DNA from: Bacteroidales bacterium
Lineage (GTDB): Bacteria; Bacteroidota; Bacteroidia; Bacteroidales; P3
Length of the DNA stretch: 64,000 nt
NCBI GenBank assembly: GCA_017522255.1
Contig: JAFWZP010000120.1
Coordinates: 1-64,000 of the forward strand
Direction of reading: 5' to 3'
Position 1 is the first letter of the stretch; each line of letters starts with the position of its first letter. Of the stretch, positions 12,663 to 31,627 are shown piece after piece. A program made the translations under genes and the position numbers. The notes under the pieces are model-generated. The model saw nothing but the letters and a program-made list of their open reading frames with translations. It had not been told where the DNA came from and did no database searches.

Positions 12663-12915
12663 TGTTCTGTATTATTTTTTTGCTATTAACGTAGCATAAA
12701 TGAAAATATTGCTTTTGGCACGTTGATGTATATGAAAGATAATGTTTTTATGGGAAAGATTTTCTATTTAACTAAGATGTTAAATCTTCAATATATTAAC
12801 AACCCCTATTTTAACGTGCCGAAAAGGATTTTTTTGTATCAAAGTGCGTTTATCGCAGTATAGGAGAGTTGTTGTGATAATTACTTGATAATCAATAGTA
12901 GTTATTTTCTTTTCG

Positions 12916-13047
12916 GAGCGAAATATATTGCTTTTGCGAGTACACCCTGGTTTCATCGCGATGAAACCAGGGTGTACTCGTGATGAAACCCGGGTTTCAT
13001 CGCGAGCCAACTATACCATCCAGGCGATGGAAGTGCAACGGTTAGGC
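12916..13047. repeat. 22-bp phased palindrome array with a 44-bp perfect palindrome
   Basis: Units start at 12916, 12938, 12960, 12982, 13004 and 13026, all 22 bp apart. Each begins GA(G/T) and most end with the linker GC. Positions 12937-12980 form a perfect 44-bp palindrome centred between 12958 and 12959. Positions 12982-13001 are a second perfect 20-bp palindrome (GATGAAACCCGGGTTTCATC). The halves are exchanged between units: GAGTACACCC plus TGGTTTCATC, then their reverse complements in swapped order. It lies in the 726-bp gap between the lipoprotein gene and the PagL-like gene. Outside the array, 12663-12915 shows no feature. Confidence 0.85.
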
Positions 13048-13323
13048 GATAAAAACATGCAATTTTGGGCTTCTATGTGTGTCGTAGACAGAAGCGAATT
13101 AACATTTGTAGATTTTGTTTAACATTTGACAACCCTTCTAACTACCCAAAAAACGGATGGCAAACAGATAAAATATGGCGACGTTTTAAATAAAATGTGT
13201 TATATCAACGATGGTGATACAATATTTATGGACAATTGTTGTTTTTTGCAACGTGTGGAAAACAAACTGCCGTGTGTGATTGTATATTTAGCCGGAGAGT
13301 GGCAGTGGTTGTCTTCCCGATAA
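13048..13323 (+). pseudogene. Possible degraded coding fragment with an in-frame stop
   Basis: One reading frame continues from about 13048 (DKNMQFWASMCVVDRSELTF) to the stop at 13321-13323, broken only by TAA at 13120-13122. After that stop the frame reads TTLLTTQKTDGKQIKYGDVL and ends LPCVIVYLAGEWQWLSSR. The composition looks protein-like, but there is no good start codon or recognised family, and it abuts the palindrome array. It could be the tail of a lost gene or chance. Confidence 0.3.
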
Positions 13324-13388
13324 AACAATTGAATGATATTATGAATTGTATTTTACAAACAAAATAACCAAAGAGTCGAAATCATAAG

Positions 13389-14486
13389 ATGAATAGTATG
13401 AATTATCTGTTGCGAAATTGTAGAAGAGCGTTTTTTGTGTTTGCACTTAGCCTTTTTGTGGTGAATGGTGTTGTGTGTCAAAATATTTTTGTTGGTGGCG
13501 ATATGCGCTATGGCCATATATTGTGCAACGACGATCAATCGCGTGCCCACATAAACTCTTCTACCTATGGCTTTTCGTTTTATATAGGTAACAATTTTGC
13601 TGAAAACGAGTATTGGCATAGCTATTGGAATTTTCCTTCGTTTGGATTGGAACTTTCTTACGATTATATTGATAATGCTGTTACCGGCAATAAATTAGGT
13701 GCATTGTTTTTTATACGTCCATCGTTTTACAAAACCGAACGCTTATCGCTTAATGCTTATTTGGGTTTGGGATTGTCGTATTTTTCCAAGGTATATCACA
13801 AAACCGACAATCCACATAATACTTACATCGGTTCTCATACCAATGCTTTGATAAACTTGGGAGTGCAGTCTAATTATTTTGTTTCGGAACGTTTGGCACT
13901 TACTGCAGCCGTTAAGTTTAGTCATTCGTCGAATGGGCAAATGTTTCGTCCCAATTTTGGTTTAAATTTTGCTCAGTTCGAGTTTGGGTGCGAATACTAT
14001 TTTGATAGATACAAATATACTGTGCCTATTGTGGAAAAAGATAAAGTCAAGGACAATTCTGTCAATATTTCTTTTTCGCCGGGCATCACAGAGTCGAAGC
14101 ATACAGGAGAGCGTTATTTTGCGTCATCGCTTTCTATAGCTTATTCACGTAGATTTCATCCTTGTTTTGCCTATGGTATAGGCTACGATTTTATGTATAA
14201 TGGAACAATAGCTGCCACTCCTTGGTATACCGATGCTTCGGAGTCGGATTGTTTTTCGCAAGGCATTGTAGCCAACTTTGAATGCCTATGGGGTAGGGTG
14301 GCTTTGCGTGTAGGATTGGGTGGATATGTGATTAATGGCGAGCATCAAAAGTTGCCATACTACGAGCGTGCCGGACTCTTCTACTATTTGGATCGTGATA
14401 TGAGTCAATATATAGGAATTTCGATAAAAGCACATGCTGCCAATGCCGAATTTATAGAGTGGACATACGGCATCAGCTTGGGTTAG
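13389..14486 (+). CDS. Acyloxyacyl hydrolase / lipid A 3-O-deacylase, PagL family
   Basis: Outer-membrane beta-barrel enzyme predicted to remove an ester-linked acyl chain from lipid A, altering endotoxin structure. A signal sequence covers about residues 1-31 (ending VVCQN). Alternating beta strands fill residues 40-220. The PagL-type catalytic pair is visible in KFSHSSNGQMFRPNFGLNF: His179 and Ser181 (H-x-S), with downstream strand E(F)GCEYYF typical of the family. At 365 residues it is longer than enterobacterial PagL because of a C-terminal ~150-residue region that looks like additional barrel strands, as in Bacteroidetes members. Family assignment is good; substrate specificity is inferred. 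ATG 13398 is an alternative start. Confidence 0.8.
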   Translation: MNSMNYLLRNCRRAFFVFALSLFVVNGVVCQNIFVGGDMRYGHILCNDDQSRAHINSSTYGFSFYIGNNFAENEYWHSYWNFPSFGLELSYDYIDNAVTGNKLGALFFIRPSFYKTERLSLNAYLGLGLSYFSKVYHKTDNPHNTYIGSHTNALINLGVQSNYFVSERLALTAAVKFSHSSNGQMFRPNFGLNFAQFEFGCEYYFDRYKYTVPIVEKDKVKDNSVNISFSPGITESKHTGERYFASSLSIAYSRRFHPCFAYGIGYDFMYNGTIAATPWYTDASESDCFSQGIVANFECLWGRVALRVGLGGYVINGEHQKLPYYERAGLFYYLDRDMSQYIGISIKAHAANAEFIEWTYGISLG

Positions 14487-19985: not shown

Positions 19986-21065
19986 ATGAAAAAGAAATTT
20001 TTGTTGCTTGCAGTGCTCTTTACCACACATTATTTTTCGTCCGAAGCCTGTACAGGAATATCATTAACGTCGGCTGATGGTAGTTATTTCCAAGCTCGAA
20101 CTATCGAATGGGGTGGTACTAATTTGAATAGCATGTACGTAGTTGTTCCACGTCATTTCACACAAACATCGCTTACTCCCACCGGCGAGAATGGACTTAC
20201 ATTCAAGTCTAAATACGGCTATGTTGGTATGGCTGTATCGCAAAAAGAGTTTATTGCCGAGGGAATTAACGAGGCCGGCCTATCAGCGGGATTGTTTTAT
20301 TACCCTCATTATGGCAGTTATGTCGATTATAATGCGGCCTACAACAATATTACGCTTGCCGACTTGCAGTTTGTGGCATGGATATTGTCGCAGTTTTCGT
20401 CGGTCGACGAGGTGAAACAGGCCGTCAACGACGTAAGGATAGTATCTATACAGCCCGGTCCAAGTTCCGATAATGCCATACATTGGCGTGTGGGCGACAA
20501 AAGCGGCAAGCAGATTGTGATAGAGATAGAAGATGGTGTTGTGCATATATACGACAACGTTATAGGCGTGCTTACCAACTCTCCAAACTACCGTTGGCAC
20601 ATTACCAATCTGAACAATTACGTAAACCTTACTTCGCAAAACCCCAAGCGTCACCCAATGGGACCTATCGAAGTATTCCCATTCAGTTATGGTTCGGGCT
20701 ATCTTGGATTGCCTGGCGACTTTACAGCACCCTCACGCTTTGTGCGTGCAGCTTTCTTCAAAACCACAGCACCAACGCTGAAAACTGCTCGCGAAACTAT
20801 GCTACAATGCTTCACTATTCTCAACAATTTCGACATCCCCATAGGCATGGAGTATTTGAAGGATGAACTTCCGGACCTGCCAAGTGCAACGCAGTGGACT
20901 TCGGTTATTGACCTTACCCACCGAGAGATATATTACAAGACTTTTTACAACAACACTATCCGCCGTATAGCATTGGATGATATCGACTTTGAGAAGGTAA
21001 AGTACCAATATCATCCTTTGGATAAAAAGGACTCGCAACCTGTGGAGACTATCAAAATCAAATAG
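19986..21065 (+). CDS. Choloylglycine hydrolase / penicillin V acylase family amidase (C59), secreted
   Basis: Ntn hydrolase acting on a linear amide bond; members hydrolyse conjugated bile salts, penicillin V or acyl-homoserine lactones. A signal peptide ends at SSEA, leaving Cys22 as the mature N-terminal nucleophile (CTGISLTSADGSYFQARTIEWG). Other family positions: Arg in ARTIEW, the Asn-containing GINEAGLSAG segment, NSPNYRWH (active-site Asn), and Arg in TAPSRFVRAAFF. 359 residues. The ARTIEWG segment differs from the GRNxD form of typical bile salt hydrolases, so substrate is not settled from sequence. Own transcription unit: a terminator lies upstream at 19851 and an inverted repeat follows at 21093. 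Confidence 0.88.
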   Translation: MKKKFLLLAVLFTTHYFSSEACTGISLTSADGSYFQARTIEWGGTNLNSMYVVVPRHFTQTSLTPTGENGLTFKSKYGYVGMAVSQKEFIAEGINEAGLSAGLFYYPHYGSYVDYNAAYNNITLADLQFVAWILSQFSSVDEVKQAVNDVRIVSIQPGPSSDNAIHWRVGDKSGKQIVIEIEDGVVHIYDNVIGVLTNSPNYRWHITNLNNYVNLTSQNPKRHPMGPIEVFPFSYGSGYLGLPGDFTAPSRFVRAAFFKTTAPTLKTARETMLQCFTILNNFDIPIGMEYLKDELPDLPSATQWTSVIDLTHREIYYKTFYNNTIRRIALDDIDFEKVKYQYHPLDKKDSQPVETIKIK

Positions 21066-21132: not shown

Positions 21133-21240
21133 GTGTACCGCCCCTCTTATAGTGATGGAGAACTGCAACCCGACCATGGATTTTTTTAAGAAATATTCGT
21201 TCATCAAAAATGCCCCTTGAACAGGTTTTTGAGGGACATT

Positions 21241-21345
21241 GCACTCTCAATTTCTTGAGAGTGCATTCTCAATCTCTTGACAACGCACTCTCAACTTCTT
21301 GACAACGCACTCTCAAGATGTTGAGGATGCACTCTCAATAATGCG
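21241..21345. repeat. Array of 22-bp units (4 full, 1 partial), word ACTCTCAA
   Basis: Units start at 21241, 21263, 21285, 21307 and 21329. Each begins with linker GC followed by ACTCTCAA (ATTCTCAA in unit 2); the second half is an inverted version such as TTGAGAGT or TTGACAAC. Unit 1 is a near-perfect palindrome with 10-bp arms GCACTCTCAA / TTGAGAGTGC. There are no unique spacers, so this is not a CRISPR array. It lies between the convergent C59 amidase and prmC genes, a 392-bp gap otherwise without a gene. Confidence 0.85.
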
Positions 21346-26444: not shown

Positions 26445-26576
26445 TTTTTCAAGTGCTGTACTTGCGTGCCGTAAGCCTGCGGTTTACGACCCGTAAGTGC
26501 CATAGTTTTGACCCGTAACCATGGCAGTTACGAGTGCTAACCCGCATGGTTACGAAGGACAAGTGTAGGGGTTGCA
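26445..26576. repeat. 22-bp phased array, word (A)CCCGTAA ... GTTACG
   Basis: Words TGCCGTAA (26467), ACCCGTAA (26489), ACCCGTAA (26511) and AGTGCTAA (26533) are exactly 22 bp apart, with a weaker unit at 26445. Each unit ends in an inverted partner such as GTTTACG or GTTACG. The 19-mer TTTTGACCCGTAACCATGG (26506-26524) occurs as its reverse complement in another array at 52850-52868. The 321-bp gap between the membrane gene (26356) and the DUF368 gene contains nothing else. Confidence 0.8.
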
Positions 26577-30883: not shown

Positions 30884-31158
30884 CTATCTATTTTATTTAT
30901 TAACAGTCTATTTATTTCTATTCACCCAAAAACCAAAGTAGAAGGCAAAGCATGGCTTGCCTTTCCACTTCCGAATATTATCTTCGTTAATTATCTTTTC
31001 CTTTATCCTGCGAAGCCACCGTCGTCGTTGCCGCCGGTGTTAGCCTCTTTCACTTCGCCTTTGTGGTTTAGTTTTTGCTTCTTTCTTATGTATCCTATTG
31101 CCATAGCCCGTTGTTTTGTTTGTTTTATTGTTGTTTTTCAATCCTTTATTACTCCCAT

Positions 31159-31405
31159 ACCGAAAGGGTGGTTGCCGTTGTTCGGAAAACCTGGTTGACG
31201 CTGTGCTGAGAACCTGGTTAACGGCGTGCTGAAATGGTGGTTTCCTCATGCCATGAGGAGGTGTTCCTCATGCCATGAGCGGTATCTCCTCATGCCATGA
31301 GGAATATTCGCTCATGGCATTTGCAGACCACCCTTTCAGCACAACGGCAACCACCCTTTCAGCACGTCGACCACCACCATTTCGGCACGTCGGCAACCAT
31401 GCTTG
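31159..31405. repeat. Large nested palindrome array, 22-23-bp units, about 245 bp
   Basis: Core units CCTCATG-C-CATGAGG at 31244, 31266 and 31288, with a fourth related word at 31310, all 22 bp apart. Flanks carry GTGGTT-type words on the left at 31168, 31191, 31214 and 31237 and ACCACCC/ACCACCA words on the right at 31327, 31350 and 31373, spaced 23 bp. Left 31162-31181 is the exact reverse complement of right 31341-31360 (20 bp). The whole element is thus one imperfect inverted repeat with a repetitive centre. Small open frames here merely translate the repeats. The gap 30884-31627 (744 bp) contains nothing else recognised. Confidence 0.85.
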
Positions 31406-31627
31406 CCGAAGACGGCATATTTTGTTACAGAAAACCGCTCTTGGCAGGCTGCCACCCTTTCAGTATTTCAATAGAACATTGCTGTTCAAACTCGCGAAAA
31501 CTTTTCTTTCGCAGTTCGAAAGTAAAGATGGTTGTATTTCGTTGGAAATATTGGTTAGCGAGAGGCTCTTCCCTACAATAGTTCCTCATTTTGTTGGTTG
31601 CCTGCCGAGCATAATCCGAATGGTACC

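Follow-up and report, generated by a model that had tools for sequence, protein, structure and literature searches.

A 44-bp perfect palindrome in a dispersed intergenic element of Bacteroidales and its probable origin by template switching

The window is the whole stretch of 64,000 nucleotides that was analysed, positions 1 to 64,000 of contig JAFWZP010000120.1 of a Bacteroidales genome (hereafter G000). Adjoining the gene for a PagL-like lipid A deacylase (window 13389-14486) is a discrete intergenic element of about 360 bp with conserved ends. Units 5 and 6 of its core form a 44-bp perfect palindrome at 12937-12980, with 22 of 22 positions paired and zero loop. This palindrome occurs only once in the window. 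The parts of the element are listed below.

12768-13127, forward strand: complete dispersed intergenic element with left end, core of 22-bp units and right end, delimited by the profile match and the limits of conservation
12768-12816, forward strand: left end, consensus about TTAACxxxAATGCTAAATCTTCGATATATTAACA-N7-ATTTAACA, conserved in 24 copies
12885-12895, no strand assigned: dyad TTGATAATCAA, with CTGATAATCAG instead in several other copies, read by eye from the copy alignment
12937-12980, no strand assigned: 44-bp perfect palindrome of units 5 and 6, CGAGTACACCCTGGTTTCATCG joined to CGATGAAACCAGGGTGTACTCG
12937-12958, no strand assigned: unit 5, left palindrome arm, putatively rewritten as a reversed complementary copy of unit 6; its six G000-specific changes each pair with unit 6
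12959-12980, no strand assigned: unit 6, right palindrome arm, the putative template, identical to unit 6 of the congener G002 at 19 of 22 positions
12981-13002, no strand assigned: unit 7, with one mismatch to the family consensus unit CGATGAAACCCGGGTTTCATCG
13003-13068, no strand assigned: core units 8-10, in the same register in other copies
13098-13127, forward strand: right end ATTAACATTT-N10-TTTAACATTT, with 117 bp between it and unit 7 in 22 of 25 copies

The sequence-only reading had described a loop-free 44-bp palindrome without mismatch, followed by a self-palindromic unit, in 22-bp units at 12916-13047. Both palindromes are present. The longer one begins one base to the left of the unit frame given there, and directly after it, inside unit 7, is a 20-bp perfect self-palindrome at 12982-13001. 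The 22-bp units are real as well and make up just one section of the core of the larger element at 12768-13127. The palindrome arm of 22 compares with a maximum of 10 in 20 first-order Markov sequences of the composition of the window. An assembly artefact is unlikely as its source, because the locus is interior to a contig of 78 kb and a short read of the usual, here assumed, length would span the palindrome. Another 22-bp array of the window contains, at 496-529, a further perfect palindrome without a loop, of 34 bp (arm 17).

The profile of aligned element copies, drawn from G000 and four congeners, matches the window at 12787-13129 (E 1e-78, the target itself being among the profile copies). 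Conservation and information drop to background outside 12768 and about 13127. The half-units of the core have the pooled consensus cGAtgAAA and alternate in orientation every 11 bp, which corresponds to 22 bp per dyad. The family consensus of the right end is TTTAACATTT-N4-ATTTTNTTTAACATT. By eye, the left end shares only AATGYTAAA with the right end read as reverse complement, and no target-site duplication was recognised. An open frame at 13004-13388 was considered as a pseudogene and dropped; other copies show the same register.

Based on the search for CGATGAAACCCGGGTTTCATCG with at most three mismatches, there are 20 sites in G003, five in G004, two in G002, and one each in G005 and G000, while all 15 genomes of other genera that were searched lack it. 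The left-end pattern is seen at 27 sites in G003, two in G004, and one each in G002 and G000. It was found in none of 55 genomes from other genera of the family, and its reversed control gave no site at all. Further copies in G000 have similar ends but different words (C120:67756-68104, C76, C116; 3 copies). One scan of viral contigs for the unit 7 palindrome gave no match, and neither did a tRNA search. Rfam has no match in the window, and five element copies matched only far below the gathering scores. A helix scan on 16 copies as a sign of RNA structure gave some pairing excess over column permutations, but the centres are irregular and non-local; the scan is not relied on, since the extraction truncated left ends and mixed subtypes. 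Two near-identical copies in G003 (contigs C44 and C62) have a common left flank and different right flanks, which suggests recombination between copies or strain mixture.

Element length was compared through landmark distances, as the uniform 345 bp is partly an artefact of the extraction window. The exceptions to the 117 bp between unit 7 and the right end are 95, 139 and 116 bp, of which 95 and 139 are exactly 22 bp either way. The corresponding left distances are 198 or 199 bp in 14 copies, 221 bp in five (all in G004) and 189 bp in three, including the G000 copy; 186, 201, 209 and 232 bp are seen once each. These distances indicate that lengths shift mostly, though not only, by steps of about 22 bp. 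The copy L157 contains one additional 22-bp unit. The sequence of the core is far more variable. Among 22 copies, the median ungapped identity of the 183-bp core is 0.52, and 40 random core pairs contain 3415 substitutions and five indels. Intergenic controls with the same aligner gave two indels per 35 and five per 91 substitutions, although these controls are just two, small, and less diverged than the core pairs. Under lenient gap costs, the gapped alignment scored better in 51 of 60 core pairs. Of the 12 half-unit positions, most retain the GA and A-rich pattern among 21 copies.

Orthologues of the locus are present in G005 (C92), in G003 (C276, which matches the left gene too), and in G002, where it is split across contigs C15 and C39. 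The arms of units 5 and 6 pair at 13 of 22 positions in G002, 10 in G005 and 11 in G003, against 22 in G000. The site in all three orthologues is thus an imperfect inverted repeat, the starting state that a template switch calls for, and the recent formation proposed in the sequence-only reading is supported. Relative to G002 and G005, G000 alone carries six changes in unit 5 and two in unit 6. Each of these eight is now paired, and for five of the unit 5 changes the partner is an unchanged base of unit 6; an independent new base is expected to match in about one case in three (a rough value that ignores base composition). As a template switch would leave it, unit 5 in G000 is the exact reverse complement of unit 6, and the unit length is unchanged. 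Unit 7 has two G000-specific changes, both paired, which raise its self-pairing. The reading of unit 5 in G002 spans the apparent insertion that splits the two contigs. The loss of synteny to the left of the array in G002 was considered as an array breakpoint and is better read as this C15/C39 insertion, which has 18-bp inverted ends.

In E. coli, template switching at quasipalindromes turns imperfect inverted repeats into perfect ones (PMC7202029), and such quasipalindrome-associated mutation is also described for hairpins (PMC8794818). The G000 locus is similar in that the repeat is perfected at unchanged unit length, and differs in that the event is deduced from genome comparison alone. A replicating strand probably folded back at the quasipalindrome of units 5 and 6 and took unit 6 as the template for unit 5, whose former sequence would thereby have given way to a reversed copy of its neighbour. 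Because two of the eight changes are within unit 6, a single clean copying event is insufficient, and the simplest history has an earlier change in unit 6 before the copying. The 44-bp palindrome is most likely an ordinary replication accident. Taken together, a palindrome made by template switching in one copy of a genus-specific dispersed element, whose core spacing is kept as a putative binding lattice, is the reading that we consider fairly probable. The locus can be seen as a naturally preserved trace of what looks like a template switch yielding a perfect palindrome in a bacterium, with the imperfect state visible in orthologues.

The order of the half-words had earlier been attributed to an inversion within the array. 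Inversion of a single unit, or unequal recombination within the array, could produce swapped half-words, and related changes do occur: the array at L040 4586-4706 in G005 contains inverted and self-palindromic units of the same two half-words, and whole units are lost or gained at L026 8341 (one 23-bp unit fewer in G002) and in L157. At the palindrome, however, unit 6 is in place and matches the G002 unit at 19 of 22 positions, and unit 5 is an inverted copy of it. There is no change of length. Such a rearrangement is very unlikely, because the former unit 5 has disappeared instead of being turned round, while unit 6 has not moved. Selection for dyad symmetry is another alternative. If a hairpin or a strictly palindromic site were needed, compensatory changes could have perfected the palindrome, and the pairing of all eight lineage-specific arm changes, the palindromic nature of the family consensus of unit 7 and the slightly higher similarity of facing half-units within elements than between them (z 2.3) are in its favor. 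If perfect pairing were needed, neighbouring half-units should match more within elements than between. In 21 copies, the back-to-back half-units that correspond to the palindrome arms show no such excess (z -0.4); direct neighbours among right half-units do (z 3.9). Besides, the orthologues tolerate 9-12 mismatches per 22, and the five unit 5 changes that face an unchanged unit 6 base have the look of directional copying. Selection of this kind is therefore regarded as unlikely. As the back-to-back half-units are unmatched, the perfect palindrome looks like an isolated event. The active maintenance that had been proposed for it is unlikely, and the palindrome probably has no separate function.

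Perfect loop-free palindromes of this size had also been described as normally unstable in bacteria. This carries little weight: a length of 44 bp is modest, the suggested check for SbcCD genes showed that G000 and four of five congeners encode SbcD, and a 50-bp perfect palindrome lies elsewhere in G000 on C116. Special tolerance is therefore not required. That 50-bp palindrome (L032 493-542) and a 40-bp one (L028 13056-13095) are outside the detected arrays.

As for the element itself, a phased protein-binding lattice is the best guess at its function, as it best accounts for a spacing that is conserved although the sequence changes. The core would be a lattice along one helix face to which a dimeric DNA-binding protein attaches, and the core spacing may be kept because of this binding. 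Few dispersed repeats hold their spacing in this way as they diverge, which suggests a DNA-binding system. A competing explanation, which concerns the element and not the palindrome, sees a MITE-like repeat in neutral decay, with phasing that is only inherited and with no protein lattice. The sharp ends, the many dispersed copies in unrelated flanks and a layout like that of BrickBuilt (PMC4596501) are in favor of such a repeat, whereas the few indels at about 52% core identity, the length steps of about 22 bp and the position-specific conservation of half-units speak against it. We regard neutral decay as possible, at less than even chances.

BrickBuilt is a MITE of Porphyromonas gingivalis, intergenic and dispersed, with 19 copies in ATCC 33277. 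It consists of a leader, a tandem array of 23-nt units (about two helical turns per unit) and a tail. Its units are copies of one direct repeat and differ widely in number among strains, by whole units, and its ends are transposon-like inverted repeats (PMC4596501). The element described here resembles BrickBuilt in layout, being an intergenic and dispersed Bacteroidales element with an array of units of about two helical turns between a leader and a tail, and in changing length mostly by whole units; the likeness of its conserved, sharp-edged ends to leader and tail is one of layout. It has 22-bp units of alternating 11-bp half-units, variable in sequence, instead of 23-nt direct repeats of one sequence. 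Its length is near-fixed, and a clear terminal inverted repeat is not seen. Periods of 23 bp do occur in other arrays of G000. Membership in BrickBuilt is not claimed, as unit, ends and length behaviour differ.

REP/BIME and REPIN sequences are also short intergenic palindromic units in many copies (PMC2817692, PMC3116915). The units here share these properties, but they follow one another directly, in a 22-bp register, and belong to a larger element. The RAYT domain Y1_Tnp (PF01797) is found in none of six genomes of the genus, against five of 14 control genomes. In the iteron arrays of replication origins, sites of about 22 bp recur on a single face of the helix. The core is similar in this respect and differs from iterons in its many dispersed chromosomal copies and in alternating half-units that are not direct repeats.

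Arrays with similar periods are frequent in these genomes. In the window, only lags 22, 23 and 44 are prominent between 10 and 60. A strict scan of about 397 kb of G000, which left out two masked contigs, detected six arrays at lag 21, 13 at 22 and four at 23, with little else beyond multiples and a 69-bp period, which is attributed to repeat proteins. The 21-23 bp grid is common to many unrelated sequence families. Intergenic array density, derived from sampled stretches, is 6.1-7.0 per 100 kb across the five genomes of the genus that were sampled; G084, from another genus of the same family, has 6.4. The G000 value is possibly biased, since its stretches were partly picked for GCGA arrays; several congener stretches were picked through matches, and those of G084 were not. 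Nine other Bacteroidales genomes (18-80 kb sampled each) have none, G029 has 1.2 and G042 has 5.0; the G042 matches resemble 7-bp repeats. One small contig of G051 contains two arrays, one of them with a 22 bp period. Grid arrays thus occur at about six per 100 kb in all six sampled genomes of one uncultured Bacteroidales family and are nearly missing from the other families sampled. Gene orientation around the arrays shows no clear preference. We found no literature on such arrays in Bacteroidales, and the element on a 22-bp grid in this uncultured gut bacterial group appears to be undescribed. It can be speculated, tentatively and with the odds against it, that there is a family-wide class of undescribed chromosomal elements: phased half-site lattices every 21-23 bp, in which several sequence families keep the grid and replace the words, and which would be bound by lineage-specific proteins organising the chromosome or silencing intergenic DNA.

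Several other arrays deserve description. At window 21224-21345, the array of G000 aligns nearly without gaps to that of G005 (L040 4586-4706), with words replaced, in a region that is about 87% identical overall. G002 and G004 are without this array. Composite arrays are seen at window 31155-31412, L040 1099-1418 and L048 3685-3893. Their order is direct 23-bp units, palindromic 22-bp units and inverted 23-bp units; L048 has just a short centre. The array at L026 8341-8496 is composed of 23-bp units of AGTCGGGT, and apart from exactly one missing unit the G002 counterpart is nearly identical. Another dispersed element, at L026 10480-10800 (C84 of G000), has four 21-bp palindromic units between arms with ATAAAACT-type cores every 22 bp or so. 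Its copies are present in L021, L033 and L116-L124, with about a dozen in G000. A choloylglycine hydrolase family gene (window 19986-21065) adjoins another array. A degenerate 22-bp array around GACCCGTAAGTGCCATAG, at window 26470-26556, has further matches within G000 as well as in G001, G002 and G005.
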